DNA of 64,000 nt, from positions 868,001 to 932,000 of the forward strand of contig CP066225.1 in the NCBI GenBank assembly GCA_016350165.1. Reading direction: 5' to 3'. Below are positions 9,977-56,324 of this stretch, in pieces (within the stretch, counting starts at the first letter, position 1; each line of letters opens with the position of its first letter). The notes beneath the pieces were generated by a model. The model saw only the letters and a program-made list of their open reading frames with translations, searched no databases and was not told the DNA's origin. The translations under genes were made by a program, and so were the position numbers. Origin of the DNA: Planctomycetota bacterium. GTDB lineage: Bacteria; Planctomycetota; Phycisphaerae; Phycisphaerales; Phycisphaeraceae.

Positions 9977-10723
9977 TTAAGATTGTTCGCGTTTACGACG
10001 AAGTAGCAGGGCCATGAGTGATGCAAGGCCGAGAGAAGCTGCGGCTGGTGTTGGGACAGCGATGTTTGCAGCTTCCTGATCAGCAAGAAATTGGTTGTAG
10101 TCAATGAGTTGGCCATAAAGATTGAAGTTGATGGTTTCGCCGACTTCACCTGAATTGATGGAGGCACTAATATCATCAGCGGATTGGCCGAAGCCGAGGA
10201 GTTCGACTGAGTAAAGTGTACCGTTGAAGTTAGCGGTATAGTCAGTGCTGACTGCACCATAGTCACCGATGTAAATAGAATCAAGACCGCCACCTTCACC
10301 GTTATCGACACTTACATCGATCTGGAATTGACGGTATGAGCCATTGAGTCGAGCGACGATAACGTTACGTAATACTTCGGGTGTTGTGCCATCGATTGTA
10401 CCGATGCCGTTGGTGTATGTGAGTGAACCTAAGACGAAGGTGTCGCCCAAGTCGATGTCATTGAAGCTCGTGTTTTGGCCTGTACTGCGATAGATATCAA
10501 CATCCTCACGATCACCTGTGGAGCTATCTCCAAGATAGACGTTAATGTAGTTATCACGTTCGTAGGTGCTGCCTGCGTTTTCAGGATAGCCGGGACGATA
10601 GACGGAGGAAACACGTGATCGGCCATCGAATGTATCTGCAAACGTAACGGGGGCCATGAGAAGCATGGCGACGGGAACAGTTACGTGTTTAATTATGTTA
10701 GTCAGTTTAGGCATATAAACCAT
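9977..10723 (-). CDS. PEP-CTERM sorting-domain protein
   Basis: This 248-residue secreted protein has a signal peptide (residues ~1-30, cleavage near TFA) and a beta-rich central domain that I do not recognise (FDGRSRVSSVYRPGYPENAG, then strands with DVDIYRSTGQNTSFNDIDLG). The C-terminus has the PEP-CTERM layout: a VPTPAAAS motif replacing VPEPA, a hydrophobic stretch LGLASLMALLL and a basic RRKREQS tail. Such proteins are substrates of exosortases. ATG 10723 follows AAAGGTGGGA and is better than the GTG inside that RBS. The exosortase-like protein at 23.1-24.0 kb is the only candidate sortase in the window. Confidence 0.78.
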   Translation of the reverse strand: MVYMPKLTNIIKHVTVPVAMLLMAPVTFADTFDGRSRVSSVYRPGYPENAGSTYERDNYINVYLGDSSTGDREDVDIYRSTGQNTSFNDIDLGDTFVLGSLTYTNGIGTIDGTTPEVLRNVIVARLNGSYRQFQIDVSVDNGEGGGLDSIYIGDYGAVSTDYTANFNGTLYSVELLGFGQSADDISASINSGEVGETINFNLYGQLIDYNQFLADQEAANIAVPTPAAASLGLASLMALLLRRKREQS

Positions 10724-10915
10724 GACAGATCCCACCTTTCTTCACAGGGTGCGCGTGGGTTCAATAAAAATAGGATGCTCAGATTATGTTGATGCTGAGG
10801 TTACCTGATGCTGAGCAGAATCTTAGGTAGGAATGTTGTGCGATCAATGAAGAGGCGATGAAAGACATGTACGTGTTTCAGTAGAAGTTTCAATGAAAAC
10901 CCGTGAAAAGGCACA

Positions 10916-18641: not shown

Positions 18642-20078
18642 TTATTTTAAGCCAACGACTTGTTTGAATGTGAGAATGGTGAGTTTTACATCAAGTATGA
18701 AGGACATGTTTTCTACATATTGAAGGTCATACTTAATCCATTCTTGAAAGTCGAGCCCTTCATCGCGTGATCGATAGACCTGCCACATGCCTGTGATGCC
18801 GGGACGTACAGAAAGTCGAGCTTCACGCCATGCAGGACAGAATTGATTTTCACTTCGAGGCGATGGACGAGGGCCGACGATAGACATGTGACCTAACAAG
18901 ACGTTGAGGAATTGAGGTAGTTCATCAATGTTGAGTTTACGAATGATGCGGCCTGTAATGGTGTGTCTTGGATCTTTTTCGATATAGAAGTGAGGACCAT
19001 CTGACACGTTTTCTTTTTGTAAATCTTCTTTGATTTTTTCTGCGTTGTTACGCATAGAACGGAATTTAATACATGGGAATTGTTTGCCGTTGATTGTTTC
19101 TCGCTGATGAGCAAAGAAGAAGGGACGACCATCTTCAAACCAAATTGCGAGCATAACAATTGGGAAAATTGGCAGAACAATTAATAGTACGATAATAGAA
19201 AAAACAATATCAAAAGCGCGTTTCGCAAAACGTTGTGAGGATGAAAGACGTCGGGGTTTCACATCATCAAAATTAAAATTGCGTTTAGGATCAATGTCTG
19301 GCGCAATAAGTTCCCATTTCAATTCTTCAGCTTGTGGGCGTTGATCGGGTGCGTCCCAAATAACTGCGGGGCCAACGACCGAATCAATTTTATGTAGATT
19401 ACGCCCTGCTCCAATCCAAACGGGACCGACGAAACGTGTGCCATTTTGCGGTGCACTATCAGGTAATGTCCAAACATCAAGTTCGCGATTCACACGCTGG
19501 GCAGTATGTATGGTTGCATCGGGGCGTCGCCATGTGTTGACGAGATGACGCATGTATTTCTGCACTTCTGACTCTCGTGTACTGTCGTAAATCGTTGCGG
19601 TGAGTGACGAAGAAGCACGATCAGTTTGAGGAATGTCCTTCCTGAGTTGCCGCCATGCGGAGCGTTCGTCGGCGAAGCGTTGCCATGATTCTGCGATGAC
19701 AATGTCAGGTGTAAGTGCGACACGTTCAACGAGTTGCTGAGAGGAGCCATAGAGGCGTTCAAAGCGAATAAAGTGCTCTTGATGATCTGTGATGATGCGT
19801 TCTTTGTAGCCGTGATCTTGAGGATCATGGAGACGCAGCAAGAGAAGGTGCGGCCGGAGCCAATTGAGGATATCGAGAATGGGCTTGAACTTGAAAGTAA
19901 CCAATGAGTGTTGATCTATGAGTAAATAAAGTTCTGCGGATCGATTGAGTTGTACGTTTGAATTGAGCCGAACCACTTGTGTATTGCGCGCAGCCCAAAA
20001 CCGATCGTGGAGTTGATGAGGCGTGAGACCCCAGATCGTACGTTCGAGTTCAGGCGTATTTGATGCTTGTATGATCAT
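18642..20078 (-). CDS. Undecaprenyl-phosphate sugar transferase
   Basis: 478 residues. The C-terminal ~200 residues are a bacterial sugar-transferase domain (PF02397 type): one membrane segment (FDIVFSIIVLLIVLPIFPIV), then CIKFRSMRNNAE, RKLNIDELPQFLNVLLG, MSIVGPRP and RPGITGMWQVYRS. It starts EPS repeat-unit assembly by moving sugar-1-phosphate to undecaprenyl phosphate. The N-terminal ~270 residues are soluble and of unknown function, in place of the four membrane helices of WbaP-type enzymes. It is the last gene of the leftward EPS locus, 35 bases after the tyrosine kinase gene. Confidence 0.88.
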   Translation of the reverse strand: MIIQASNTPELERTIWGLTPHQLHDRFWAARNTQVVRLNSNVQLNRSAELYLLIDQHSLVTFKFKPILDILNWLRPHLLLLRLHDPQDHGYKERIITDHQEHFIRFERLYGSSQQLVERVALTPDIVIAESWQRFADERSAWRQLRKDIPQTDRASSSLTATIYDSTRESEVQKYMRHLVNTWRRPDATIHTAQRVNRELDVWTLPDSAPQNGTRFVGPVWIGAGRNLHKIDSVVGPAVIWDAPDQRPQAEELKWELIAPDIDPKRNFNFDDVKPRRLSSSQRFAKRAFDIVFSIIVLLIVLPIFPIVMLAIWFEDGRPFFFAHQRETINGKQFPCIKFRSMRNNAEKIKEDLQKENVSDGPHFYIEKDPRHTITGRIIRKLNIDELPQFLNVLLGHMSIVGPRPSPRSENQFCPAWREARLSVRPGITGMWQVYRSRDEGLDFQEWIKYDLQYVENMSFILDVKLTILTFKQVVGLK

Positions 20079-20113: not shown

Positions 20114-22546
20114 CTATGCAGTACGTTTGTTTTTTCGGACAGACCCATAGGAAGCGACTGCGGATGCAAGTGGACCGTAGCGTTCGGATTGTTGTTGTGT
20201 GAATACTTCCCGTGGAAGAAGGTCTGACTGCCTGCGTGATTGAGCAGCGGACATGGTTGCGTAGGATGTTTTTTGCATGTCTTCACTGAGTGCGTGATTG
20301 AAGACAACACCTGCAACCTTGGCTTTAAGTGAGTATAGGTGCTCAAAGGATTTATAGGTAAGGCTCTTATTGTCGCCACGTGAAACGACCATAATAACGT
20401 TGTCCACGTTACTGGACATGATGGAAGCCTCGAGTGAGCCGAGAACAGGGCCAGTATCAACGAGGATAATGTCATAATAACGACGAGCTTGGTCTACAAG
20501 CTTACGTAACTCGACTGGTGATAGTTGGCCTGCGTGGTGAGGTTGAGCATTTCCAATTGGTAAGACGTGAAGGTTTTCGATATCAGTGGTGCCAATGGCG
20601 TCACGGAAATTGAGGCCGGCACATACTTCAAGAATACCAACGGCCGTTTCCTGTTGCTGCTCAAGTGCGTGGTTGACTTGTTCTTGTGATGCCATCTGAC
20701 GATCAACGATGAACTGGGCTTCAGTGATGTTTCTATTTCGAACTGCTAAGTGGACTTCGTGTACTTGAGTTTCAGTCAGGATATTATTGTTGAAAAGAAC
20801 TTCTGAAAGCGGCATATGAACAGCGATATCAAGACGCCGAGTCAAGCCACCTGCGACTAGATCGGAGTCGATTAATAATGTTTTAGAGCCCGTTGCAGCA
20901 AACGACAATCCCAATGAAATTGTCATGGAAGTTTTACCTGATCCAGCAGCAGGGCCTGTCACCGAATAAGCAAGGCCCATACGTTCATTTTCATCTGGGG
21001 CTGCAGCAATTTGTAGCAATGCCCGAATGTGATGAACTGCATGTGATGCGATGGCTGCCTGTTCGGGGTCTGTCAGTTCAGATGGCAGTGTTGGCAACAC
21101 ACCAAGCATACGAACATCTTTGAAGCCTGCCTGCGCGTCTTCAGCATGTCGTAAGCGGCGATCTGCGAGGCCGACCAACAGAATAATGCCAACACCAAAG
21201 CCAGCTCCACCAGCAAAACCTACGAGGCCAAATTGCATACGCTTAGCACTGTTGTAAGGTTCGAGTGGATAGTCACCTGAATTGAGAACATCAACTGTTT
21301 GATCTTCTGGCTGCTCAACTTCAAGCTTTTCAAGGCGTGTATTTGTGAAGTTCAGGTCGTCTTTAGTTTCACCAATTTCTTCGTTGATCTGTGCGATCTT
21401 GTTGATTCGTTCTGCAAGGGTCAGTGCTGCAGCTTCTTTCTCGTCAATCTCTTCTTCCAGTGTCTGTTCACGTGCACGCAATTGTTTGATTGGTGATTGA
21501 GGTGCACCGGATGCATCAAGCGCTAGCCCACTACCTGAAAGTACATATTGATCAATTTGCCTTTTCACAGCACGCAACTCGGCACGAGTATTTTGAACTT
21601 CTTGGTGGCCTGCACCGATACCACGTGTGTCGTACATATGAAGACGTGCTTCAAGCAATTCTTTTTGTGAGAGCATTGTGCGGATATGTGGGTCTGTTAA
21701 TGCAAGCTGAGCGACAATTGCATCAGAAGCCATTGCGTTATCTTTGCCACCAGAATCAGAGGTTGGCGCGTTGTTATAGCTTGGAACAAAGGATTTAATT
21801 TTTTCTTGCAGATCTCTTAATTCAAGTTTAATTTCTTGAATGTTATTTCGTAAGTTGTCATGTTCAACAATAATCGTTGTTTCGGTGCCAAACTCACTGA
21901 TGAGGAAATTTTTTTCTTGTTGAAGTCTTGAAATTTTGTTTTGCTCTGCTTGCCTGATTGTACGAATCTGGTTGATCTTATCTGAACCACGTTTCTTATA
22001 TTCATTACGTGTGTAAGTTAAATATGCATCTAGAACGGATTGAACACCAGCTTGCGCTTTATCAGGTGAATCATTAACGAAAGCAAAATTAATCACTTCT
22101 AGCTTACGGGGGTGATTAACGACTAGATTATGCAGAATGATTTCGAGTGCAGTAGCTTTAGGGAGCTTTCCGAAGTACTGTTCGAATCGCGGGTCAATGA
22201 TTGCTTCATTTAAAACTTGCGGTGATTTAATTAGCTGAACTTGAGATTCCATGTATGAATCGAAGGTGTTAATTTGGAAACGTGTATCGACATCGTTGTA
22301 GAGAAGTACATCACGTGATTGAGGGATTCGAATCTGAGCATGCGATTGAAATTCGTTACCTTTTCTGAAATAACCTGCCATTCCGCCTGCAAGACCGAAA
22401 ACTGTCGCAAGAATGATCGCCCAATGATAACGTCCACGTAAGAGCATCAATACACGATTGGTTTGGCGTGGTTGATCCTTGGACTCCATACCATCCCAAT
22501 TTGCCATACCAAATTGCGACATATCATCAAAATCATTAGTGGCCAT
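20114..22546 (-). CDS. Polysaccharide chain-length regulator / BY-type tyrosine kinase
   Basis: 810 residues. It has an N-terminal Wzz domain with membrane helix ~40-58, long coiled coils (~180-415), a second membrane helix (~440-462) and a cytoplasmic CpsD/BY-kinase domain. Walker A is GPAAGSGKTS (531-540), A' LLIDSD and Walker B DIILVDTGP. It controls EPS polymerisation and export. An insertion of about 60 residues (585-650) follows the A' motif and looks like the N-terminal domain of type II secretion ATPases. The C-terminal tail has only two tyrosines (YGPL, YGSV) instead of a cluster. ATG 22546 has GGAG 7 bases upstream; the upstream TTG overlaps that RBS. Confidence 0.9.
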   Translation of the reverse strand: MATNDFDDMSQFGMANWDGMESKDQPRQTNRVLMLLRGRYHWAIILATVFGLAGGMAGYFRKGNEFQSHAQIRIPQSRDVLLYNDVDTRFQINTFDSYMESQVQLIKSPQVLNEAIIDPRFEQYFGKLPKATALEIILHNLVVNHPRKLEVINFAFVNDSPDKAQAGVQSVLDAYLTYTRNEYKKRGSDKINQIRTIRQAEQNKISRLQQEKNFLISEFGTETTIIVEHDNLRNNIQEIKLELRDLQEKIKSFVPSYNNAPTSDSGGKDNAMASDAIVAQLALTDPHIRTMLSQKELLEARLHMYDTRGIGAGHQEVQNTRAELRAVKRQIDQYVLSGSGLALDASGAPQSPIKQLRAREQTLEEEIDEKEAAALTLAERINKIAQINEEIGETKDDLNFTNTRLEKLEVEQPEDQTVDVLNSGDYPLEPYNSAKRMQFGLVGFAGGAGFGVGIILLVGLADRRLRHAEDAQAGFKDVRMLGVLPTLPSELTDPEQAAIASHAVHHIRALLQIAAAPDENERMGLAYSVTGPAAGSGKTSMTISLGLSFAATGSKTLLIDSDLVAGGLTRRLDIAVHMPLSEVLFNNNILTETQVHEVHLAVRNRNITEAQFIVDRQMASQEQVNHALEQQQETAVGILEVCAGLNFRDAIGTTDIENLHVLPIGNAQPHHAGQLSPVELRKLVDQARRYYDIILVDTGPVLGSLEASIMSSNVDNVIMVVSRGDNKSLTYKSFEHLYSLKAKVAGVVFNHALSEDMQKTSYATMSAAQSRRQSDLLPREVFTQQQSERYGPLASAVASYGSVRKNKRTA

Positions 22547-23092
22547 ATAACGCTCCAAAACATCTGATCCATCGCTGCTATATTGCTAAAGCCTTAGCCT
22601 GTATTCTGCTGCAAGCGCAATGTATGCGTGTATTTGTTACAGATTGTTATCACAGACTTTACTGGCTTAAACCCTGTAGCTGATTCTCAACAGATGCTTC
22701 TACTGAACTCATGCCCATTCAATGGGTATTGGTTTAGTAGATTTCTTCTCATTAGATTTTTCGCACCATAGTTTGGTTTAGCAGATTTGAGGGATAAGGA
22801 TTGTCGCCATAGCGGGTTATACTTATTGTCCTCTGTTATCCCTAAACACAATGTAAAAATGCGTATGCATGAAACTTCAGTTCCATGCACAGTGCTACAT
22901 ACATCTGAACATACCCCCCTATTTGCCAGCCTATTGAACAGAAGAAAGACGACTAGACGTCGATCAGGCAGAGATATGTCCTCAACGATAAATAATAACC
23001 AGTAGATGGTTTATATGCCAAAGAAAGGAGGCAAAGGTAGGGTTTATATGTACTCAAATATGCTGCTTATGCACATTGTTTGGGTGAGTTGC
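22547..23092. promoter_or_regulatory. Intergenic regulatory region upstream of the BY-kinase gene
   Basis: The 546 bases hold no supported gene but carry repeats. A 24-base inverted repeat with one mismatch (TGCATGAAACT...AGTTCCATGCA) lies at 22866-22889. Two 16-base direct repeats, TTGGTTTAGTAGATTT at 22729-22744 and TTGGTTTAGCAGATTT at 22773-22788, follow. There is also a CCCATT/AATGGG hairpin at 22713-22725 and an inverted GGGATAA/TTATCCC pair around 22791-22845. The region probably holds the promoter and control sites for the last two EPS genes. Confidence 0.45.
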
Positions 23093-23995
23093 TCACTGTT
23101 CCTTAGGAACCGAAAAACGACGCATTGGAATAGCGGTCCAAAAGAGCAATCTGATGATGATGTAGTAGATAGCGATTGATAAGAATAGTGTGATCCATGC
23201 GATGTAGGGCATGAGACTATGCACCCACAATGGATCGTATACGTTGTATAGCCATGTTGTAGATAGAGATCTTAGGATGCTGGCGAGAAGCGCAATAAAC
23301 GGACTGATGAGCATTAAGATAACACGTGCTGAAGATTTCAAGGGCAAACCAAATGCGAAAGCGTAGGACATCAGAACAAAAGCCATGAATAAACCCATGA
23401 TTCGTCCCGTTTCTGAAATCAAAATAGGTAAATTATCATCATTGATAAGAATGTTGCCTTCACGCATAATCTCGCTGCCAAAAATGCTATAAATAACCTG
23501 CGTAATGTCAGTGGTAGCTGCTTGAATGGGCTCTGATATGAAATACGCAATTGGTGTTGGAATTGGGATTATCATAAAGAGTACGACAAAAGCTGGTAGA
23601 AATCGTCTGGGAATGTTCATGCCGATGACTGATATAACAAAACCAATGACAACCAATAGCGAGCCAAGTGCTGTAATGGTAAATACAGTTTTAAATTTTC
23701 CGTACTCAACCAATCCCCAGCCTAACGCAATAAAAAGAAGCCCTGCCCATGCATGAGATGGTGTACAAAATCGCATACGATGCCGTCTCACATAAAAAAG
23801 CCATACTGATATAAATGGCACAGCAAGTACATAAAGAGCATGATTGTAATATACAGCGGTTATCCAAATTACTCGCCATGTGTTGAAGGTGAGTGTAATA
23901 CTTACCGCAAGCATTATGCATACCAAAACAATATGCGCCATGGTCCAGCCATTACGTGATAATGTTCTTGGGATTATCGATGGTGTGGTATTCAA
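23093..23995 (-). CDS. Exosortase-like membrane protein lacking the catalytic cysteine
   Basis: About 300 residues with eight or so membrane helices and the layout of exosortase/archaeosortase proteins. It has an early YYNHALYVLAVPFISVWLFY segment, a PIPTPIAYF segment, ASILRSLSTTWLY with the conserved Arg (242) and DPLWVHSL with the conserved His (259). Where the family has its catalytic Cys (in an EACSG-type motif), this protein reads ISETGRIMG; its only cysteines (26 and 77) lie elsewhere. It may be inactive or use other chemistry. The start is TTG 23995, one base after the upstream stop, or ATG 23941. It sits inside the EPS locus, as EPS-linked exosortases do. Confidence 0.7.
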   Translation of the reverse strand: MNTTPSIIPRTLSRNGWTMAHIVLVCIMLAVSITLTFNTWRVIWITAVYYNHALYVLAVPFISVWLFYVRRHRMRFCTPSHAWAGLLFIALGWGLVEYGKFKTVFTITALGSLLVVIGFVISVIGMNIPRRFLPAFVVLFMIIPIPTPIAYFISEPIQAATTDITQVIYSIFGSEIMREGNILINDDNLPILISETGRIMGLFMAFVLMSYAFAFGLPLKSSARVILMLISPFIALLASILRSLSTTWLYNVYDPLWVHSLMPYIAWITLFLSIAIYYIIIRLLFWTAIPMRRFSVPKEQ

Positions 23996-23996
23996 T

Positions 23997-24878
23997 TTAT
24001 TCTATGTTTGAACTTATGACTGTATCGACTATTGATTGGTTACTAGCGACATAACCATTAGGAGCAATCACTGATCTTACAATAACAGCATTTTCCTCAA
24101 TGACGCTGCCTTCAAGTACGACAGAGTCATGAACGATTGCGGTTGGATGCATTTTAGCTTTGGTATCAACAATACTAAAGGTTGCCTGCCAATCTTCTAG
24201 AGTCTGCTCCCTATGATCAACAAGATGATTAAAAACGTGAAATTCTTTAATCGCATTCAGGTAACTATCTAAAGTTCGTACTTGGAATGTCTGAACAGTG
24301 TTACTGCGATGCACTCTAACATCATGCTTTTTTGAAATTTGAGGTAATGCTTGCTCTTTAATGTCAACATATCCAACTTTACCAATTGTCTTTAATATAC
24401 CCGATCGAATCAGCATAATATCAGAAGGTGTGCCATCCTGTTCTGCTGCAATTGCGATATCTGCTTTAACTGTGGCAAGTTCTCTAACCATGTCTTTAAC
24501 AGAGCCTAAAACAACTTGTGCAGCATTTGCAACAAACAGGAATTCATCATCATCGTATTCTTCTGCTAAATCACGTAATAAGCCCCCAGTACCACGAAAT
24601 GCAAATGGATCTTGCTCAAAAGTCATCTTAATCCTTGAACTGGCTTGATGCGATAAATCATATAATACACTTGATCGATCCTGCATAATTCTGACATGTA
24701 GCTTTGCCTCTGACAATGAAGTTGCTAAATCGTTGAGCTGCCTTTGCCACGCATCAAGAATCGTGCAGTCCCCGTCAATCGGCAATGATAAAAAACCTTG
24801 ACTGATAGCACGTCTGAGTGGTGACGGACGAACAGAACCCGCGAGCAATACAACTGCTTTTAAGTTCAATTCTTCCAT
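23997..24878 (-). CDS. Degenerate nucleotidyltransferase-like protein with C-terminal beta-helix
   Basis: About 293 residues. It starts LKAVVLLAGSVRPSPLRRAI like sugar-nucleotide pyrophosphorylases (LKAVILAGGxGTRL...). The Gly-rich GTR signature and the downstream Lys are gone, and the metal Asp position after EFLFVANAA is not acidic. The C-terminal ~50 residues (HPTAIVHDSVVLEGSVIEEN) are a short left-handed beta-helix. It may be a regulatory pseudoenzyme or a diverged transferase. It is translationally close to the exosortase-like gene (stop and start one base apart), suggesting a joint role. ATG 24878 is preferred over the upstream TTG. Confidence 0.6.
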   Translation of the reverse strand: MEELNLKAVVLLAGSVRPSPLRRAISQGFLSLPIDGDCTILDAWQRQLNDLATSLSEAKLHVRIMQDRSSVLYDLSHQASSRIKMTFEQDPFAFRGTGGLLRDLAEEYDDDEFLFVANAAQVVLGSVKDMVRELATVKADIAIAAEQDGTPSDIMLIRSGILKTIGKVGYVDIKEQALPQISKKHDVRVHRSNTVQTFQVRTLDSYLNAIKEFHVFNHLVDHREQTLEDWQATFSIVDTKAKMHPTAIVHDSVVLEGSVIEENAVIVRSVIAPNGYVASNQSIVDTVISSNIE

Positions 24879-24931
24879 AGTTATTTCTTTCAATTCAATG
24901 TCTTTGATTTAAGTCGATGCAATAATCCATT

Positions 24932-25714
24932 TTATTTATTACACAATTTTAGACGCTTTTTAATAGATTGATACATTAAATAAAATACAAATGGAACACC
25001 ATGCATCAAATATCTTTTAGCAAGGCGGCCGGGCTCTTGAACCAGCCTGTGCAACCATTCAAGTCCAATCCGCTGCATCCATGCTGGGGCTCTTCTCACA
25101 TGCCCGGAGATAAAAGACAAAGAAATACCAATACCTAAAAACCATGTATTGGGCATCAGCGATTTTAATTCTTTGATTAACAACTCTTGTTTAGGTGATC
25201 CCAAAGCAACATAAACAATATCTGGATGACTATCAGTCAATAACGTTTTGATCTTTTCTATTTGTATTTGATCTTTTTCAAAACCAAAAGGAGGTGAGTA
25301 AAATCCAGCAATTTTCAAATCCGAATGACGTTGATTTAAAACATTGGCTGATTTTTCACAGGCATCTTCTTCCCCTCCTAAAAGATAGATTGAAAAGCCA
25401 TTTGTAGCTGCTGATTCTGTGAGTGAATTAATCAAATTTGAACCTGCAACTCTTTCAGGTAACGGAGTACCTTGAAGTTTGCTCGCCCATACTAACGGCA
25501 TTCCATCCGCAACTATAAGATTAGCTTCACAACATAATTCCTTAAATTCCAAACTATGATGTAAACGATACATGTGATCCAAGTTTGGTGTAATGACCCA
25601 ACCGCCAATATGGCGATGCAATTTTTCGATAATATATTCAATACACTGCGATTCAGTGATTTGATTTATGCTTACATTAAGTAAATCAATATTTGGCAAT
25701 TCACTATTCATCAT
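24932..25714 (-). CDS. WecG/TagA/CpsF family glycosyltransferase
   Basis: 260 residues matching the GT26 family. It has TPNLDHMYRLHHS, VADGMPLVWASKLQGTPLPE, RVAGSNLI, FSIYLLGGEE, PDIVYVALGSPKQE and GIGISLSFISGHVRRAPAWM, with a basic C-terminal helix that binds the membrane. It transfers a sugar (ManNAc/ManNAcA or similar) to a lipid-linked intermediate in EPS or O-antigen assembly. It starts with ATG 25714, just past the preceding stop. Confidence 0.92.
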   Translation of the reverse strand: MMNSELPNIDLLNVSINQITESQCIEYIIEKLHRHIGGWVITPNLDHMYRLHHSLEFKELCCEANLIVADGMPLVWASKLQGTPLPERVAGSNLINSLTESAATNGFSIYLLGGEEDACEKSANVLNQRHSDLKIAGFYSPPFGFEKDQIQIEKIKTLLTDSHPDIVYVALGSPKQELLIKELKSLMPNTWFLGIGISLSFISGHVRRAPAWMQRIGLEWLHRLVQEPGRLAKRYLMHGVPFVFYLMYQSIKKRLKLCNK

Positions 25715-26942: not shown

Positions 26943-28820
26943 CTATTTACTTTCTTTATATTCAATAAGATTAGCTGTCGATGCTGTTACTCTATTTATA
27001 TGAAATTTCATTTGCCCATATACCGCAGGAAATTTACTTAAGGTCATAAACAAAGCGAATAATCGTGATGTTCTACTTGGCCATTTCTTTTGTTTTCCAT
27101 AACGAAATAGCTTTATGAAATGCCATGCATATACACTTAGCAACAAAAGACCCCACGGAAACAAAGTGATAATGAAAAAAGGAAGTATTAAGCCATAAAA
27201 CCAAATATTATGACTCTCCTTTTTCCAATGCCTCTCGGGAGCTTTCCCATGCATTGTGGCACCTTCTGCAAAACCCCATCCACTACGAATCGTTCTTAGC
27301 CACCATTGCTTGAATTTGTGAATATCAGCGTCGTGCATAGTCATTTCACAATCGATTCGATGAATCTCCCAACCATTTTGTCGAATACGAATACATAATT
27401 CAGGTTCTTCTCCACATATCATGGTAGTATTAAAGCCTCCGGTTTGTGTGAGTACTTCAGCTCTAATCATTGCATCGCCATGACAATACTTCACAACACC
27501 AATTTCTGAATCCCACTCAATGTCTGCAAGTTTGTTATATACGGATGCATCGACAAAGCGTTCTCGTCGCCTTCCGCTTACAATTGCTACATTTTTATGT
27601 TTTTTCAGATAACTAACACCTTCTTGAATCCAACCCGGAAGCAATTCACAATCACCATCAATGAATTGGATAAACTGAATTTTAGGATGTAGTTCAATTA
27701 AATGTTTAAACCCGGCATTTCGCCCCTTAGCCATATTCATTGGTTCATCTGGATTCAAGCAAACCACTTCAACACCTTTAGATTTCGCATACTCAACACT
27801 TCCATCACTTGAATCGGAGTCTACATAAACAATCTTATTAGTTTGATCAAGAACTGATTCGATAGAACGTCGTAGACGCTCGCCTTCATTACGGCCAATG
27901 ATCACAACTCCTATTTCATTATTACATTGTTCATTCACTTCAATTGAATCTTTCTTCGAGAAACATACATTAGTTTGATTTTTCACTTTATCTTTAAAAA
28001 TTGTGCAAGTTAAAGTTATGTCAAACCACCTACTTATTTTTTTCAAATCTTGATCAAATATGTATTGCAATCTTTCAATTCTATCGGGCGAAATTACTGG
28101 ACGCTCTTGCATTGTCCAGTGTCGCTTAATTTTATCTCGTACCTTCTGTGATATAAGTTGTTTACGAATAAAAGTAATTGGTTTTGAATATACGATAGCA
28201 TCACGTACTGGTGATATTCTTTCTCGTTGAGACGATATATTTTCGTGTTTGTGATCTTGCCACACCGGCCGCCTATGATATTCAATAAATTTCGCTACAT
28301 TTTCGAGCACCTTTTGTTGGTTTTTTATAAAATGCTCAAAAAAGATCGGCATCACCCGATCACTACCTAACGCGTTCAGATAAGGCTCAATTTGATATGC
28401 ATATTTTGAATAATCAATTAACCTAGGATACCTATCTATTGCCTTATCAATTGGTTCACTTATTGTACGTTCGGTCCATTCATGAATGTAATGCGATGTC
28501 AAACGATCAATCGGGTGTCGCATGATATAGATAACTTTTACATTCGGCACATATTCAAGCATTCGATCAAGTGTACGGGAATAGGTAGGTAATTTGGTGT
28601 AGTGCGTGCTTGATTCACCGCAAATATCAACATCTTTTGCATCCTGATAAAGTGAGGCATACCAGTCTAAACCTTTAGCATAAACTTCATCATTACTGAA
28701 AAAATTGGGTTCTTTAGGCTCGGTCATATATATGCCAGGCTGCTGTGCGAGCTGATCATGCAGTGTAGTAGTTGCACACTTCATTGAGCCAATAATGATA
28801 AAGTCAGGTTTATTCTTCAC
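26943..28820 (-). CDS. Sulfotransferase-glycosyltransferase (GT2) fusion
   Basis: 625 residues, two enzymes in one chain. Residues ~1-285 are a PAPS-dependent sulfotransferase: FIIIGSMKCATTTLHDQL is the 5'-phosphosulfate loop and IYIMRHPIDRLTSHY the 3'-phosphate motif. Residues ~300-530 are a GT2 transferase (GVVIIGRNEGERLRRSIESV, VDSDSSDGS, FIDGDCEL, and HGDAMIRAEV), followed by one or two membrane helices. A joint glycosyl transfer and sulfation step in EPS synthesis is inferred. GTG 28820 overlaps the upstream TGA by four bases (GTGA) and has GGAG before it; no ATG fits. Confidence 0.85.
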   Translation of the reverse strand: MKNKPDFIIIGSMKCATTTLHDQLAQQPGIYMTEPKEPNFFSNDEVYAKGLDWYASLYQDAKDVDICGESSTHYTKLPTYSRTLDRMLEYVPNVKVIYIMRHPIDRLTSHYIHEWTERTISEPIDKAIDRYPRLIDYSKYAYQIEPYLNALGSDRVMPIFFEHFIKNQQKVLENVAKFIEYHRRPVWQDHKHENISSQRERISPVRDAIVYSKPITFIRKQLISQKVRDKIKRHWTMQERPVISPDRIERLQYIFDQDLKKISRWFDITLTCTIFKDKVKNQTNVCFSKKDSIEVNEQCNNEIGVVIIGRNEGERLRRSIESVLDQTNKIVYVDSDSSDGSVEYAKSKGVEVVCLNPDEPMNMAKGRNAGFKHLIELHPKIQFIQFIDGDCELLPGWIQEGVSYLKKHKNVAIVSGRRRERFVDASVYNKLADIEWDSEIGVVKYCHGDAMIRAEVLTQTGGFNTTMICGEEPELCIRIRQNGWEIHRIDCEMTMHDADIHKFKQWWLRTIRSGWGFAEGATMHGKAPERHWKKESHNIWFYGLILPFFIITLFPWGLLLLSVYAWHFIKLFRYGKQKKWPSRTSRLFALFMTLSKFPAVYGQMKFHINRVTASTANLIEYKESK

Positions 28821-29812
28821 TTGGAATCCGCTCCGAGCTGTCCTGTTGTACGCATTGGATGAGACCAATTCGTCCAAATATCTTTAACTTCTGAATCACA
28901 CACATGCTCTTGTTTACGACCAATTTTCTCTCGAATCAAAGAAAGCGATCTTCCTACAAGCCACAACATATTTGTAAACCATAATCCTACACGACCATAA
29001 AATTTCGCCAAATATCTAGCTCTTGATGCATAAAAATATGACGGTCTTCGTTTACGTTCTTTTGTTAAAGATTTAACAGGATTGCTTTTCCCTCGTAAAT
29101 GAACTACTTTTGCTTTTGGCCAATTAAGTACAGCCCAACCATTCTTTTGCGCACGACGGCAAAAGTCGGGGTCATCAAAGTATAAAAAATATCCCGGATC
29201 TAATAAGCCAATTTGATCAAATACTTCTTTACGAATTAATGCGCATGCAAAAGTAGTCCATTGTGGCGTACTGGGACTATCTACGACATCAATCGGTACA
29301 TCAAACTTTTTAAAAATTTTCGTAAAAACACCTGTATGTGCTGCATCAATAAACTCACTAATTGGATTTATGTATCGAAAACAACTTATTTGAGGTGTGC
29401 CATCTGGCCATTCTAATCGTGGACTAATTATCCCTGCTGAAACATTTTCATTTGCCGCTTCTAACAGTTCGTTAATTGCATTTTCCCGAACAATAGTATC
29501 AGCATTTAATAACAAAAAGTTTTCTGGTGGATCAGACCAATTTAAAGCATCTTTCAATACTGCATTGTTACCGCCTGAAAAACCGCGATTCGGTGAAATC
29601 GCTTTCAGCCAACACCACGAAGCCCAATTATTATCTTCAATAGCTTTCGCAATTATTTTCGCATCGGCATCGCCTGTACCGTTCTCACATACTGCTACTT
29701 TAACTAAAGGTAGAGATGCTATTTGCTCACTGATAGATTGCAAACAATCTAATGTTAGACCGGTTGCTTTGTAATTGACAATAACAACAAGTAACTTCAG
29801 TTGTTCTGACAT
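28817..29812 (-). CDS. GT2 family glycosyltransferase (rhamnosyltransferase-like)
   Basis: 331 residues, WcaE/RfbN-like. It begins LKLLVVIVNYKATGLTLDCL, then has SPNRGFSGGNNAVL, FLLLNADTIV (DxD-like), GIISPRLEWPDG and GYFLYFDDPDFCRRAQKNGW. These residues are typical of inverting GT2 rhamnosyl- or glucosyltransferases. A short C-terminal region is basic and may touch the membrane. It lies in the EPS locus and its stop overlaps the start of the sulfotransferase fusion. Confidence 0.9.
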   Translation of the reverse strand: MSEQLKLLVVIVNYKATGLTLDCLQSISEQIASLPLVKVAVCENGTGDADAKIIAKAIEDNNWASWCWLKAISPNRGFSGGNNAVLKDALNWSDPPENFLLLNADTIVRENAINELLEAANENVSAGIISPRLEWPDGTPQISCFRYINPISEFIDAAHTGVFTKIFKKFDVPIDVVDSPSTPQWTTFACALIRKEVFDQIGLLDPGYFLYFDDPDFCRRAQKNGWAVLNWPKAKVVHLRGKSNPVKSLTKERKRRPSYFYASRARYLAKFYGRVGLWFTNMLWLVGRSLSLIREKIGRKQEHVCDSEVKDIWTNWSHPMRTTGQLGADSK

Positions 29813-33261: not shown

Positions 33262-34656
33262 TTACTGGGTATTACTACGAGATGGATGTTCTTGTACGCC
33301 CAAACCTCGTTTTTTTGCTCTATTCATGATAGCTTGCATTTGAATCATAGCGAATACCTTTCGCCATGGCATCGTCGTCAAACCACCTGCAATCATAAGT
33401 GGTATCGGATTGATCTGTGCGTTAAGCAAACGGTCGATCATAAATATCCCCAAGACCATTGCCAACGCAATGGAAGGCCCAATAACAGGATGCCGCCATT
33501 CTTTAGGCGGGACTCGATACGCAACTCGTAACATCGGCAACATCAGCACGCCAAAGAAACTAATTAGCCCTAAAAGACCATTCTGTCCCAACACAATGAT
33601 CCAGGCCGAATCGGTCGTCGATGTGTCCTCTCCTTCTTCATTTTGAATTCTCGAACGGTTATATCCACCCCAGCCAAACAATGGCCGCTCCATCGCCTTA
33701 TCACGCAATTCATTCTCATTATAAATTCGCACCTGCAGCGACTCGACACGTTGAGGCGAAAACACCGAGCCTGCCGTATCCAAAATCGGCTGTGCATCCC
33801 AATCAAAGATCACACGTGAAGATAGGTAAATAGGCAAAGCCATCAGAACTCCCAACATAACCACACGCGTTTTTATGTAATAAGTACTGAAATACAACCC
33901 AATCCCTGCCATACCCAGTACCAGCGCACCTGAAGATTTACAAAATACAAATGTAACCAATTGTATTGGTACTAGCCACGATATAGGCATACCAAACACA
34001 TCTTTCAACTGTTTCGTATGCCAAAGAATCACACCACATATTCCCGCGCCAGCCATCCACAATCCTAAAATCAAACCGTTCTTCATAAACACACGTGGTC
34101 GGTAACCACCCCACCGAATCGAGTGAATAAACTGGTGTGCATGTTGCCCATATACTTTCAGGTGCAACTGCGGACTGATGATCAATTCCAGCCAAACCAA
34201 AGGCAAATAGATAATCGTAGCGATAAACATGATCCGTGCCATCTCTCTAGCCTGAATTGGATTCGACAAATACAATCTACCAATCAGATATGGGAACCCC
34301 CATGGCAAAATTACCTTCAACATACTTGATAAGCCATCATAAACCCCGTCACCATTCACAACTGAACTCATGAAAGGTGCGATACACCAAAGCACAATAG
34401 GCACATCCCAAAGTGACGGCCGAAAACTCGCCAAACGCTGCATATCAAATAAGCAAACGCCCAACATAATCGCGATGGCTGTAGAAGAAACTTTCGTAAA
34501 GTCAGGCAACCCCGGCAACCCAATCCCAAGCTCCGGCAAATACATCCACCCCAACACAAACGCCCACATCGCAGCTTTATGCGGCTTCATCATGGCAAAC
34601 ATCACAACTACGGTTGGGACCCATAGTGCTAAGGTAAGTGGTACCATTGCTGCCAT
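33262..34656 (-). CDS. O-antigen ligase/polymerase-like membrane protein
   Basis: 464 residues with about ten to twelve membrane helices. It fits the O-antigen ligase (Wzy_C) family: a periplasmic loop after PRVFMKNGLILGLWMAG and a segment MERPLFGWGGYNRS preceding ASIIVLG-type helices. In a Wzx/Wzy-type EPS pathway it would polymerise repeat units, or attach the chain. It lies between the flippase and the sugar-nucleotide genes. Start ATG 34656; an AGGA lies about 11 bases upstream. Confidence 0.78.
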   Translation of the reverse strand: MAAMVPLTLALWVPTVVVMFAMMKPHKAAMWAFVLGWMYLPELGIGLPGLPDFTKVSSTAIAIMLGVCLFDMQRLASFRPSLWDVPIVLWCIAPFMSSVVNGDGVYDGLSSMLKVILPWGFPYLIGRLYLSNPIQAREMARIMFIATIIYLPLVWLELIISPQLHLKVYGQHAHQFIHSIRWGGYRPRVFMKNGLILGLWMAGAGICGVILWHTKQLKDVFGMPISWLVPIQLVTFVFCKSSGALVLGMAGIGLYFSTYYIKTRVVMLGVLMALPIYLSSRVIFDWDAQPILDTAGSVFSPQRVESLQVRIYNENELRDKAMERPLFGWGGYNRSRIQNEEGEDTSTTDSAWIIVLGQNGLLGLISFFGVLMLPMLRVAYRVPPKEWRHPVIGPSIALAMVLGIFMIDRLLNAQINPIPLMIAGGLTTMPWRKVFAMIQMQAIMNRAKKRGLGVQEHPSRSNTQ

Positions 34657-34701: not shown

Positions 34702-36075
34702 TTAGTTCAAAAATGTTCGCCCCAAACCTATCACAACACCCGACAATGCGAGAACTGAAAAATCTAATGCCGGTAACCATACTTTATGCGGCCTAATTGC
34801 CCATATAACTACAGGGTATTCGCTTAACTGAGCTATTATCATGCCAACGATCAAACCACTCAGCCCTCCGTAATACCCACCTATAAGCAAACCAACGATA
34901 TAAATCGATGCGCGTGTACTCTGCATAATCATATAACGCTTCGAATCACGCTTTGCCAATAGCACACTCGTAGCCGTTTGATTCACCACCATCCCCACCG
35001 AACCGATCGCCATTAAACGCAACATCCAACCTGCATCAACATATCGTGCGTCGTACATAATATGAATAATCTTGTCGCCATATATTCCAATAAACCATAC
35101 AAATGGAAGCGACATCCCCATAATCCCACCACGTATCAGCATCGTATTATGGCGTAATTCATCCGTCCCCTTTTCAGCCAATCTCGAATACACCGGAAAC
35201 AATGTGTTATTTGCAAGCCTGTTAATCGCTTGAACGCCCATAGCCGCAAGAGCAAATGCGATACTATAAATACCCAACTCTTCTTTAGTAATCATACGAC
35301 CCAAAATCACTTTGTCCGCATACCCAAGAACAAACATTACACCTGAACTGATAAATATCCATTTGCCAAACTTGATGATGTCATGTATCGCTTCTTTCTC
35401 CCACGCAAACCAACATCGATGCCCCGGCAACATCAGATATGACATTCCTACACGACATATCGCATTGATCAACGTAGAAATCACCAGTACCCAAACTGAC
35501 CGCCAATAAAATGCAACACCAATCAGCAAACCTGTAGAAACAATCTGGGTAATAATGTTGCAAACTTCAATGCGAAAATTCTTAACCTCTCGGCATAGTA
35601 GCCACATCCCTGTCGATTCAAACGACATAATCACATATGAAAACCCAACAACCGCAATCATCGGCGCCATTCCCGGCGACTTCCAGAAAATCGCCATCGG
35701 ATAAGCAAATACCAAAATCACAAGCCATAAAATCAAACTACGAATAATGTTCGTAGTCCAAACCGTATTCATAAACACTGGCTCAGCGCCTCGTTTATGA
35801 TTAATAATATTCTGACCAATCCCCATATCGCTGAACAAATTCAGCCCAACTGCAACAGCCTGTACCAGCACCATCACACCAAACATGTCTGGCACCAACA
35901 ATCTTGTTAGTATCAGGTTACTACCCAGCCTAATGATTGTCGCTAATGCAAAGCTCAACGAAACCACAGCAGTACTGCTGACCGTGCGTTGCTTCAGAGA
36001 AGCTTCACGACCATTGCTGCTCGAACCACGCATACTCCTATACCAATTTGTAATAGCCCTCGTATGCTTGCTCAT
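34702..36075 (-). CDS. Polysaccharide flippase (Wzx-type, MOP family)
   Basis: About 457 residues with twelve to fourteen membrane helices and the polysaccharide-transporter start (TVSSTAVVSLSFALATIIRL, RLLVPDMFGVMVL). FSDMGIGQNIINHKRG and KVILGRMITKEELGIYSIAF are typical of the family. It moves lipid-linked repeat units across the inner membrane. ATG 36075 is chosen over the earlier GTG 36114, but the RBS does not decide. It precedes the ligase/polymerase gene by 45 bases, so the two are probably translated from one transcript. Confidence 0.88.
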   Translation of the reverse strand: MSKHTRAITNWYRSMRGSSSNGREASLKQRTVSSTAVVSLSFALATIIRLGSNLILTRLLVPDMFGVMVLVQAVAVGLNLFSDMGIGQNIINHKRGAEPVFMNTVWTTNIIRSLILWLVILVFAYPMAIFWKSPGMAPMIAVVGFSYVIMSFESTGMWLLCREVKNFRIEVCNIITQIVSTGLLIGVAFYWRSVWVLVISTLINAICRVGMSYLMLPGHRCWFAWEKEAIHDIIKFGKWIFISSGVMFVLGYADKVILGRMITKEELGIYSIAFALAAMGVQAINRLANNTLFPVYSRLAEKGTDELRHNTMLIRGGIMGMSLPFVWFIGIYGDKIIHIMYDARYVDAGWMLRLMAIGSVGMVVNQTATSVLLAKRDSKRYMIMQSTRASIYIVGLLIGGYYGGLSGLIVGMIIAQLSEYPVVIWAIRPHKVWLPALDFSVLALSGVVIGLGRTFLN

Positions 36076-36214
36076 GGTTGTATAGATGATACCCGACGAA
36101 CCCCTGTTTTTCACTCATTACAAAAAACATCAAATCCAACCTCTTGATCGCACGAATTAATCACTCCACATTTTTATCAAAACAATCTCAATTCTTTTCA
36201 CACATCATTCCAAA

Positions 36215-39200
36215 TCAATCAAACATCGATAACTCCAACCGGCTATCCGAATTCAGATAATCAATCAAAGCACGATATTTTACAGCATCTTCCAACGGCT
36301 GATCCTGATAATCCAGATGCCCCCAAGATCCCCACTTCCCGGGTCGATATACATTCGAATATGCCATATATAGTGAACCACCCGACGCCTCAAATGTCTT
36401 CATATTCTCAATCAATGCATGATACATCCCCGTCGTATTCTGCACTGAAATCATCATACTCGTTACAGCATCTTCGCGTGAAGTAAGATGTTGCCCAGCT
36501 TCATACGAGATATATGTAATATCACGTCCCGTTTTATTCGACCACGTCTGAGCCAACTGCTTGTGAGCAGCACGCGCATCTTTACGATTATGCATATCCA
36601 ATACAGCAAGTGCCAATAGCTCATCCTTTGAAGCAGCATTTTGCACATGAGCACCAAAATATGCCGTTGACGCAAGTGCATCCAACCGACCATTCAGTTC
36701 ATACAAAACCATCTCTGCAATCCAAGGGTTACCCTCTTGTCCTGCAAACACGCGAACCAGTCGATCCTCCTGCCCAGCAAACACTTCTGACCAAATATCA
36801 AAATCACGCCCCGCTTCATACGCCCACTGGAATAACCAGCGTTTATTCTCATCTACTGACGAATAAGCAGGATTTGCTTTCCCCTTACTACTGATCCAGT
36901 GATACTGCTGAAACGCGCCATTCCAAACCTCATTTGAATATTCAACATAAACCTTCAAATTCGGATCTAAACGATCTCGGCACATCTCTGCAAACTTACG
37001 GACAAACTCATCATCCGCTTGGTGTGGCATGCAGAACCACGGATTGAACTTCAACGTATTTGCCAAGTCAATCATATGCTCAGGTGCAATTGGCCGATCA
37101 CTTTGATGCACTTCATCTTCACTTGTTTGTTGATCCCAACTAACCAAACTGGAATTATTCGTCAGTTGCCAATCCATAAACCGCACAACACTAAACGGTT
37201 TCAAACGCTCTAAAAACAAAGGATGAAATGTACTACCATCATATTTCTGACCCGGCCCACACAATGGTGCCCACACTCTCACGTTCTCAACTTCACCCTT
37301 CGTACGAATCACCAATCCATTATCACGCTTCTGCAACGTAACTTCACCTTCACCATCAAACTCAATTGTAAAGTTACCTTGGGGCACACTGCGCGAGTCA
37401 GTCAATGCTTCATAAACTTTCCAATCACCTTCCATACGTCTGTAACTGGCTTGCCTAAATACATTCGCCCACACCCAAGCATCCGACCAGAATGTTACAG
37501 AACTCAGATTCATCCCAAGGAATGGATGACGACTAGGCAAACGCTCATCACTCCACACAGGTATATCTGGATCACCTCCGGGATTTGAACCGTTATTGTT
37601 ACCTGAGTCACTACCCGGGCTACCGCCACCACTGTTTCCACCATTATCTCCGCCATTTGTTCCACCGTTAGTGCCACCAGTATTCCCATTATCCCCGCTA
37701 TTATTTCCACCACTGTTATTACCGTTGTCATTACCAGTGTTCGTTCCTCCATCCCCCCCATCATTATTTGGCGATCCCTGATTACCACCATTATCACTAT
37801 CTATGACTTCAATCCATTGCTGAAGATACTTCGTTTCCATATCCTTAGCTGTGTAATAAATAATGATTTTATTTTTACCTTCTGGCAATTGATTTAATTC
37901 ATCTTTTCTTATAACCCACGGTTCCTGCGTTATTTTATTACTTAATCCAGCTACAGTTTGACCTTCTTTCAAAGACCAAAACCAATACCCAAGTGTAAAT
38001 CCATCAGGCAACCCACCGCTCACCTTAACTTCAATATCATCTGCACTACCTTTATTAAACGCAACATTCGCATTTGGATTGACATGAATCGTTGGCAATT
38101 CTAAAACCGGCACATCATCTTTCTTCGGCTTAATCACTTCAATCCAAAATTGCAAATATTGCGTTTCTAATCCATCTGCATATGAATAAACAATAAGTTT
38201 ATTTCGCCCCTCAGGTAACTTACTCAATTCGTCAGCACTAATACTCCATGGCTCATTAGTTAACTTCCTATTCCAGTCCGGCACAGTCTTCCCCAACACT
38301 TGCGACCATGCCCAATAACCAATACCAAATCCATTTGGCAAGTCACCTTCAACATTCAATGAAATACCAGTCAATTCACCTAATTTAAACTGTAAATTTG
38401 AATTCGAATCAACTTGGACCACAGGTAACTTCGCAACTGGCTCATTAGCCACCACTTTATCTTTAACATCAATCCAAAACTGATGGTATTCCGTCTTCAG
38501 ACCATCTGCATACGCATAAAGAATAATCTTATTGCGGCCTTCCGGTAACTTATTAAGATCATCCGTTATTATTTCCCAAGGATCATCTGATATTTTTCGA
38601 CTCCAATCAGGAACCGTCTTACCCAAAGCTTGTGACCATGCCCAATACCCAACTCCAAAACCATCAGGCTTAGATCCACTCACAGATATCTGAATACCAG
38701 CATCTTGATTTTTGATAAATACAATACCATTCCCAGTCTCAACCTTAATACTCGGCAGCGTTTTAACTGTATCATCGTTACCAGATTCATTAGCATTATC
38801 ATCACTAGGCACTTCATCTGGCGTGCTATCTAAAACACTTTTTTTATTAACAATAATAAACTGTGTTTTATACTGTGGGTCAGCATTTGGAACTGATATA
38901 TACGTGTTCAATGTATACTTACCAGGCGACAGTTTATTCAAATCAGCCGCAATAATTTGATATGGAGCAGCCATCAATCCTCTACCCCAATCTGGCTCGT
39001 TCTTCTTCAATTGATGTGACCATGCCCAATATCCACATTTTGTACCTGCAGGCACCACACTCGAAAAAGTAAAAGCCAAATCACTTGCTTTTCCTTCTTC
39101 AAAAATAATTGTTTGCTGATTGTTGATAGAAATACTTGGAACAACAACGACTCCCGGCGTCGTTTCCTCAACAGGAGTATCATCCACTTCCACAACAACT

Positions 39201-39991
39201 TTTTCACCTTCAACATTAACCCACACTGATATATACTTTGCAGCAAGCCCCTGTCCCGCATAAGCCACCTGAATCTTATTTCGCCCATCAGGCAGATTCG
39301 CAATCACATCTCCCGGTATTACCCAATTATTAGCCTTAAAATCAGTTCCCCAATCAGGCACAGTCTTACCCAATTCATGCGACCAAGACCAATAGCTCAT
39401 CACATAACCATTTGGCAATCCGCCATCCACAATCATCTTCACATCAATCGGTTTTTGTCGATTAATGACAGTATGATGCTGAACATTAAATTTCACAGCA
39501 GGCAGAGCAACAGCATTCTCGATCTTATTCGACGCGCTACTTTCAACTTCTTCGATAACTTCCACTTCAACTGGTTTATTAACAACCTCTACCCACTTTG
39601 AACCATACCGCTGTCCAGCATTCGTCACACTAACATAAACAATCAGCTTATTCGCACCGCTCGGCAACTTCGCCAATTCACTATTAGGTATCACATAAGG
39701 CGAACCTTTAACCTGTCCTCCCCATTCAGGCACAGTCTTCCCAAGCTTCTGCGACCACGCCCAATACCCAACCTTCATCTCACCACTAGCCTGACCATCC
39801 AGCTTTATTTCGATCCCTTGCCCGACTGCCATGTTATATTCAGTAGGCACATCACTACCAATATACGGTCGAGGAACCCCCTCATTCGCCCCATAAACCT
39901 TCTCTGTACAGACAAGGCTAAACATCACCAATAACGACAACACGCCAACCGTATACAAATTGGATTGTAAAGTTTGTTTCAAACCAATCAT
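36215..39991 (-). CDS. Giant secreted repeat protein with C-terminal glycosidase-like domain
   Basis: 1258 residues. A signal peptide (~1-35, ending VYG) is followed by six repeats of ~110-128 residues. Each has a GYWAWSQxLGKTVPDW-like core, near residues 75, 199, 320, 448, 558 and 668, and ends in NKLIVYxYADGL-type strands, fitting an Ig-like or jelly-roll adhesive module. A Gly/Asn/Ser-rich linker (~733-810) leads to a ~430-residue domain. That domain has YSNEVWNG (Glu1021) and ISYEAGQH (Glu1164), spaced like the acid/base and nucleophile of a TIM-barrel glycosidase. It is the first gene of the leftward EPS locus and may trim or anchor the polymer. Start ATG 39991 follows AAGGTGA. Confidence 0.8.
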   Translation of the reverse strand: MIGLKQTLQSNLYTVGVLSLLVMFSLVCTEKVYGANEGVPRPYIGSDVPTEYNMAVGQGIEIKLDGQASGEMKVGYWAWSQKLGKTVPEWGGQVKGSPYVIPNSELAKLPSGANKLIVYVSVTNAGQRYGSKWVEVVNKPVEVEVIEEVESSASNKIENAVALPAVKFNVQHHTVINRQKPIDVKMIVDGGLPNGYVMSYWSWSHELGKTVPDWGTDFKANNWVIPGDVIANLPDGRNKIQVAYAGQGLAAKYISVWVNVEGEKVVVEVDDTPVEETTPGVVVVPSISINNQQTIIFEEGKASDLAFTFSSVVPAGTKCGYWAWSHQLKKNEPDWGRGLMAAPYQIIAADLNKLSPGKYTLNTYISVPNADPQYKTQFIIVNKKSVLDSTPDEVPSDDNANESGNDDTVKTLPSIKVETGNGIVFIKNQDAGIQISVSGSKPDGFGVGYWAWSQALGKTVPDWSRKISDDPWEIITDDLNKLPEGRNKIILYAYADGLKTEYHQFWIDVKDKVVANEPVAKLPVVQVDSNSNLQFKLGELTGISLNVEGDLPNGFGIGYWAWSQVLGKTVPDWNRKLTNEPWSISADELSKLPEGRNKLIVYSYADGLETQYLQFWIEVIKPKKDDVPVLELPTIHVNPNANVAFNKGSADDIEVKVSGGLPDGFTLGYWFWSLKEGQTVAGLSNKITQEPWVIRKDELNQLPEGKNKIIIYYTAKDMETKYLQQWIEVIDSDNGGNQGSPNNDGGDGGTNTGNDNGNNSGGNNSGDNGNTGGTNGGTNGGDNGGNSGGGSPGSDSGNNNGSNPGGDPDIPVWSDERLPSRHPFLGMNLSSVTFWSDAWVWANVFRQASYRRMEGDWKVYEALTDSRSVPQGNFTIEFDGEGEVTLQKRDNGLVIRTKGEVENVRVWAPLCGPGQKYDGSTFHPLFLERLKPFSVVRFMDWQLTNNSSLVSWDQQTSEDEVHQSDRPIAPEHMIDLANTLKFNPWFCMPHQADDEFVRKFAEMCRDRLDPNLKVYVEYSNEVWNGAFQQYHWISSKGKANPAYSSVDENKRWLFQWAYEAGRDFDIWSEVFAGQEDRLVRVFAGQEGNPWIAEMVLYELNGRLDALASTAYFGAHVQNAASKDELLALAVLDMHNRKDARAAHKQLAQTWSNKTGRDITYISYEAGQHLTSREDAVTSMMISVQNTTGMYHALIENMKTFEASGGSLYMAYSNVYRPGKWGSWGHLDYQDQPLEDAVKYRALIDYLNSDSRLELSMFD

Positions 39992-48611: not shown

Positions 48612-49382
48612 ATGAAACGCATATTAACCGGAGCAGCAGCATTCGCACTGACGCTGCCCCTTCTAACCCAAGCCAACGCAGCCACCGTCACAGGCGAACT
48701 CATCGCCAACAGCGATTTCGCTGGCGCCGACAACACTGAACGCTATGAAGGATGGACCACAAACGGTATCTGGCGACCAGGCGGCAACAAAGAACAACTC
48801 ACAACCGACCTTAAAACCGATGGTAACGCTGGCTATTTCAACGCCAACACCATTGCCATCACACTCACCGACGACATCGCAATCACCTCGACCCCAGACT
48901 ACGACCCAACAACCGCAATGCTCACCGACATCACTATCAATAACCCATCAGTAAAATCGTCTGGCATACTCAAAGCTGGCGCAAACCTTAGTGCCGAAAT
49001 TTACGTCGAAATCGATATCAACACCGTTGGCGGCGACCAATATCGCGTCTCATCTACACACATCCCAATCAGCCAAGGCAACTTCCCAGCCAACGGCACT
49101 CTCACCCTCAACGACACAACCACATGGGCAACCTACAGCACCTTCGACGGCGACCCATTCACCGGCACATCTGGCATCGCCCTCTCAAACATCGACGAAA
49201 TTAAATACAAGTGGGTCATGCGTGTCATCGCACCAAACACCGACGGCACTGGCACAGTCTTCGTAAGTCTTGATGACGCTTCCGCGACATACACCGTCGA
49301 CATCCCCGCAATCCCAGAACCAGCCTCACTCGCACTCATCTCTCTCGGCGGCCTCCTCACTCTCTCACGCAGAAGAAGCTAA
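48612..49382 (+). CDS. PEP-CTERM protein, paralogue of the following lipoprotein
   Basis: 256 residues. Signal peptide 1-23 (ending ANA), a beta-rich domain (~25-230), and the C-terminal IPEPASLALISLGGLLTLSR sorting signal with a basic end. The domain has DLKTDGNAGYF (from Asp66) and DDASATYTVDIP, and is clearly homologous to residues ~65-278 of the next gene. The domain itself is not recognised; it resembles carbohydrate-binding modules in strand pattern only. Strong RBS GAAGGAGACAGGA precedes ATG 48612. The sorting signal predicts exosortase-dependent surface delivery. Confidence 0.85.
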   Translation: MKRILTGAAAFALTLPLLTQANAATVTGELIANSDFAGADNTERYEGWTTNGIWRPGGNKEQLTTDLKTDGNAGYFNANTIAITLTDDIAITSTPDYDPTTAMLTDITINNPSVKSSGILKAGANLSAEIYVEIDINTVGGDQYRVSSTHIPISQGNFPANGTLTLNDTTTWATYSTFDGDPFTGTSGIALSNIDEIKYKWVMRVIAPNTDGTGTVFVSLDDASATYTVDIPAIPEPASLALISLGGLLTLSRRRS

Positions 49383-56144: not shown

Positions 56145-56312
56145 ACGATATTTTTGTCTTAATCTACGCTAAATACAGTAAATGCGTGCCTTTGCGAAAC
56201 ATTTTAATGTATTTTTTTATCGCTTATTACATAGTTTATTATGATTTAAGACTATGTTTTTAGCTAAAAGGGGGGCTCTCCCTATTGTAAACAGTATTCA
56301 AAATGCTAACAT

Positions 56313-56324
56313 GTAATCGTTATC
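56313..56324. promoter_or_regulatory. LacI-type operator-like site
   Basis: GTAATCGTTATC, preceded by AT and followed by ACA, matches the core of the 48265 site in its first nine bases. It lies about 96 bases before the PEP-CTERM start at 56420. Confidence 0.4.

Follow-up and report, generated by a model that had tools for sequence, protein, structure and literature searches.

The window analyzed here, a stretch of 64,000 nucleotides, belongs to a single-contig genome of 5,234,020 bp that is taken to be that of the deep-sea planctomycete Poriferisphaera heterotrophicis ZRK32. It carries an EPS locus in which a 300-aa protein with a TTG start occupies the position of an exosortase, its start codon lying one base past the stop of the upstream gene for a nucleotidyltransferase-like/hexapeptide protein (NTlike). 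The gene order WecG, NTlike, exosortase, Wzc, and sugar transferase recurs across Phycisphaerales, and the locus in the window fits this arrangement (Table 1). Glycosyltransferases, a sulfotransferase-glycosyltransferase fusion, and candidates for Wzx and Wzy are encoded farther upstream. The gene for EpsI (PF11984/DUF3485; TIGR02914), which directly follows the exosortase in relatives with an intact catalytic triad, is absent beside the exosortase homologue in the window.

Table 1. Features of the window discussed in the text, with positions numbered from its first nucleotide
Feature	Coordinates	Strand	Remarks
Polyprenyl glycosylphosphotransferase (PF02397)	18642..20078	-	Downstream of Wzc-like gene
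Wzc-like co-polymerase, kinase-type ATPase domain	20114..22558	-	Downstream gene
Gap where intact relatives carry EpsI	22559..23092	.	534 bp, no EpsI
Pseudo-exosortase, PF09721 homologue	23093..23995	-	300 aa, TTG start
Codon 262 (Met), column of catalytic His	23210..23212	-	From alignment
Codon 242 (Arg), sole triad residue kept	23270..23272	-	From alignment
Codon 197 (Gly), column of catalytic Cys	23405..23407	-	From alignment; coordinates computed from ORF
NTlike, nucleotidyltransferase-like/hexapeptide protein	23997..24893	-	Directly upstream of exosortase homologue in most relatives having one
WecG/TagA/CpsF glycosyltransferase	24932..25714	-	Member of syntenic block
Wzy-like polymerase candidate	33262..34656	-	Below Pfam cut-off
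Wzx-like flippase candidate (PF13440)	34702..36114	-	Pfam match
PEP-CTERM gene	48612-49382		Passes models
PEP-CTERM gene	56303-57190		Passes models

A first-pass annotation had described the protein as an exosortase homologue within an EPS locus. Matches of the neighboring genes bear out the position, and a profile search bears out the homology, with PF09721 (EpsH/exosortase) matching residues 29-280 at 75.9 bits against a cut-off of 25.7 (E 4e-21). The model for active exosortases, TIGR02602 (8TM_EpsH), gives 28.1 bits, below its cut-off of 105.55, compared with 104-112 bits for three intact exosortases from the same genome or order. TIGR04178, the exosortase/archaeosortase signature that covers the catalytic region, does not match the window protein, whereas intact exosortases score 53-61 bits (cut-off 23). 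Judged from these profiles and from the motifs described below, the protein is a member of a known superfamily but lacks the features by which the exosortase enzyme is defined, and is a pseudoenzyme variant of it. Its AlphaFold2 model has long helices throughout (mean pLDDT 81.7), and Foldseek and VIA-align returned only weak helical-bundle matches, a comparison of folds that is uninformative either way. No solved structure related by sequence to the protein was found, and the active-site positions were inferred from motifs. A search of the genome contigs with the single protein gave no matches; a profile search of the same contigs yielded 12 relatives, which were used for a structure alignment.

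Haft and colleagues defined the exosortase family by six invariant residues, contained in the motifs C-x-G, N-x-x-R, and H-x-x-x-G (PMC1569441). When the window protein is aligned with intact relatives, these columns are occupied by Gly197, Ile199, Ser239, Arg242, Met262, and Ala266, corresponding to the changes C197G, G199I, N239S, H262M, and G266A, such that Arg242 alone of the six remains and two of the three triad residues, Cys and His, are gone. The region of the catalytic Cys reads ISETGRIMG, as opposed to IAEACNGMRM in intact relatives. Alignment of broken copies alone with MAFFT can move the Gly197 column, but alignments anchored on intact copies concur in placing Gly at the Cys position. 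The earlier annotation was right that the catalytic Cys is missing and that the two Cys residues present (only Cys26 and Cys77) lie elsewhere, and the Arg that it recognized in ASILRS is indeed Arg242, in the Arg column. The His that it recognized in WVHS is a misassignment: this residue, His259, is three positions upstream of the His column and is a Tyr in the sister genome KS4.

That genome (G049; 4,291,168 bp), which is taken to be P. corsica KS4, is the sole other member of the genus among those compared. Its homologue is 56% identical overall and has the same Gly and Met in place of the catalytic Cys and His; it keeps the Asn of N-x-x-R, which is Ser239 in the window protein. A wider view is provided by a survey of the 64 columns for which conservation reaches at least 85% among 48 intact copies, in which 16 broken copies were also scored. 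Columns lost in the window protein include E52, R150, most of the EACNG-x-R block (the run A196-C197-N198-G199), and H262, and it has kept W17, W40, R70, G85, G111, G125, P144, P146, R224, P232, W267, and P290. The kept columns are mostly Gly, Pro, Trp, and Arg, scattered over the remainder of the protein. On the strength of these alignments, a loss of catalysis in the window protein is well supported.

The state of the triad is closely tied to the presence of EpsI. Across the NTlike loci surveyed, most of them in Phycisphaerales and a small number in other groups of the phylum, EpsI accompanies every one of the more than 60 intact stand-alone exosortases (an approximate count, as some loci are doubled) and none of the 17 distinct copies in which two or three triad residues have been lost, among them those of the window, KS4, and G046. 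An earlier count of all copies, arranged as a two-by-two table of triad state against EpsI, gives a p of 1e-10, a value that ignores relatedness. The one exception is a copy in genome G041 (L168, 8960-9814; EAYNGMR), in which only the catalytic Cys is changed, to Tyr, and His, Arg, and EpsI are all kept; this copy may stem from an erroneous base in the assembled sequence or may represent loss at an early stage. No EpsI remnant was detected in the gaps tested, including that of the window, and an Rfam search of the gap gave no match. So strict an association points to a role for EpsI in the catalytic step.

Not all broken copies have lost the same residues. The window genus has Gly, Arg, and Met at the triad columns; in genus g6, G046, and G064, Cys is kept and Arg and His are replaced; in six species of g34, which belongs to another family, Cys and His are lost; and in G035 all three residues are lost. 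In G498, from another class, these columns hold Leu, Arg, and Phe. In the exosortase tree, 16 broken copies fall in one weak group (60/93); a broken copy besides these, L167, comes from another class of the phylum. The sugar-transferase tree implies three changes to the broken state and the NTlike tree two; a single clade of broken copies is not rejected (p-AU 0.12). The idea that the exosortase fold is always retained in the locus was rejected, as approximately 16 loci have NTlike with no exosortase next to it, most of them running directly into Wzc (for example, L171, L173-L175, L177-L180, L182, and L187, which have neither exosortase nor EpsI). The exosortase is missing from the locus in six g13 species, two g9 species, two g5 species, and others. 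Because several relatives lack it, the role of the protein is dispensable in some lineages.

The first-pass annotation connected the protein with three PEP-CTERM genes in the window. Two of these pass the corresponding models; the tail of the third does not. The connection is also unspecific: PEP-CTERM matches number at least 88 across the genome, which also encodes two intact exosortases at other sites, L001, which adjoins EpsI, and L002, which is fused to a PF11984 domain. Family-wide, all 10 genomes that have a broken EPS-locus copy carry a second exosortase copy, as against 1 of 22 others; among the broken-copy genomes checked, which comprise all but G498, nearly all have an intact exosortase elsewhere, and it adjoins EpsI wherever the flank was read. 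It would seem, then, that the window protein is neither needed for the cleavage chemistry of PEP-CTERM proteins nor equipped for it. The product of the third gene (9977-10735) has a choice-of-anchor K domain and a PEP-CTERM-like tail (VPTPAAASLGLASLMALLLRRKREQS; VPTPAA) that no PEP-CTERM model accepts.

Compared with the XrtA-like EpsH/exosortases (PF09721, TIGR02602), which are accompanied by EpsI (PF11984, TIGR02914), the window protein shares homology over nearly its full length, a place in an EPS locus, and the triad Arg, but it is without the catalytic Cys and His, the C-x-G and H-x-x-x-G motifs, the TIGR04178 signature, and EpsI, and scores far below the TIGR02602 cut-off. Another point of comparison is provided by the intact EPS-locus exosortases of other Phycisphaerales (for example, L058, L062, and L069), which have the same gene order and are 33-35% identical to it, but which retain EACNG, N-x-x-R, FH-x-x-x-G, and an adjacent EpsI. 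Sequence and gene order show the window protein to be related to this EPS-locus exosortase, which is intact and accompanied by EpsI in most relatives. In the window, the catalytic Cys and His, most other conserved residues of the active-site motifs, and EpsI have been lost, with the scaffold residues and the reading frame kept by selection. Cleavage or transfer based on Cys would no longer be possible for the window protein, and PEP-CTERM processing in the cell would fall to the two intact exosortases elsewhere. We consider it reasonably probable that the pseudo-exosortase has been kept as a non-catalytic membrane component of the polysaccharide machine, either a scaffold or a substrate-binding part, with catalysis having moved elsewhere. 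Its most likely place is in the EPS machine, either as a scaffold or holding PEP-CTERM tails: the retained membrane fold could hold NTlike, Wzc, and the sugar transferase together, or bind the membrane tails of PEP-CTERM proteins and leave them uncut, in the way that iRhoms bind the clients of rhomboids. The iRhoms (rhomboid pseudoproteases) and bacterial pseudoproteases such as CspC are analogs in their manner of working, each a non-catalytic protease fold under selection that binds clients or signals; they are not homologous to the window protein, and their roles have been shown by experiment, as opposed to the one proposed here. The pseudo-sortase or scaffold that was among the suggestions of the earlier annotation thus gains support from the losses in the triad and motifs, the kept scaffold residues, the absence of EpsI, and purifying selection. 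The continued conservation of Arg242 in the window protein counts against this explanation, as do the absence of an exosortase from the locus in several relatives and the slower evolution of intact copies in some groups.

A different EPS-related membrane job, such as the handling of lipid-linked sugars or an accessory function for Wzx or Wzy, with no relation to PEP-CTERM tails, is an unlikely but credible alternative. Without exception the gene lies in an EPS block with NTlike as its neighbor, and in most cases Wzc or the sugar transferase follows; a flippase or polymerase function was at one time conjectured for the original EpsH (PMC1569441). However, the locus already has candidates for both Wzx and Wzy, and no conserved polar motif of a new kind came to light.

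Conceivably, the gene is instead a decaying relic whose activity has moved to another locus, with EpsI and the triad gone and the gene itself to follow. Such an outcome would resemble the loci in which NTlike directly precedes Wzc, and the copy at the locus is broken in G046 but missing in G061 and G136, which belong to the same genus. Nevertheless, the reading frame in the window is intact, and pN between ZRK32 and KS4 is 0.28, mid-range among neighboring genes, despite saturated synonymous sites (pS 0.77). In two other genera, where synonymous change is mostly unsaturated, the broken copies give dN/dS values of 0.13-0.33 (g6) and 0.10-0.25 (g34), similar to those of intact copies in the same genera (0.28 and 0.17-0.23, respectively); the intact copies of some groups evolve more slowly (0.035-0.08). 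Retention of a broken copy also extends to six species sampled from one genus and to five from a second. Given this purifying selection, the broken proteins are very likely functional in these lineages, and decay seems a decidedly improbable account.

Still less plausible is that the protein is still an enzyme, using Thr196 or Ser194 as its nucleophile, a Ser/Thr chemistry that the first-pass annotation had also entertained. Thr196-Gly197-Arg198 is indeed common to ZRK32 and KS4, and Arg242 is kept; in most other broken lineages, however, column 196 is Val, Ala, or a gap, and Ser194 is Ala in KS4. None of the 16 broken copies in the column survey keeps the catalytic His or Arg150, Gly199 is lost in the window genus, and EpsI is missing, all of which makes such chemistry very improbable. 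A sequencing or assembly error, raised earlier as a possible cause of the altered motif, has a negligible chance of being the explanation, because the separately sequenced, finished KS4 genome has the same columns changed and likewise no EpsI.

A broader proposition, which we advance tentatively and hold to be possible rather than probable, is that the non-catalytic component envisaged here is one of a class that has arisen repeatedly and been kept by selection: the EPS-locus exosortase would independently have become a structural or client-binding part in several lineages of planctomycetes, with EpsI discarded each time because it served catalysis only. No published pseudo-exosortase was found in the open-access literature searched, which does not prove absence. 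The 2006 paper that described the family (PMC1569441) settled neither the role of exosortases in EPS loci nor the function of EpsI. A conserved dead form separates two possible exosortase roles, the cutting of PEP-CTERM tails and service as a part of the EPS machine. This separation, like the suggested link of EpsI to catalysis, can be tested directly in two cultured strains whose genomes are finished.

Several other elements of the locus merit description. Downstream of the pseudo-exosortase, a terminator-like hairpin on the minus strand (22864-22891) may end the upstream transcription unit ahead of Wzc; a promoter scan gave nothing above chance. NTlike resembles a sugar nucleotidyltransferase, but its nucleotide-binding motif is altered in all the relatives seen, with LLAGSVRPSPL where a G-x-G-T-R loop is usual; by this motif it, too, may be a pseudoenzyme. 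A 1258-aa protein (36215-39991) without a clear Pfam match is encoded where the locus ends upstream, and a partial relative is present in L067. Among bacteria, only cyanobacteria make sulfated EPS according to a 2021 paper (PMC8205485). The EPS locus in the window encodes a sulfotransferase domain fused with a glycosyltransferase of family 2 (26943-28877), which suggests a sulfated polysaccharide in a planctomycete.
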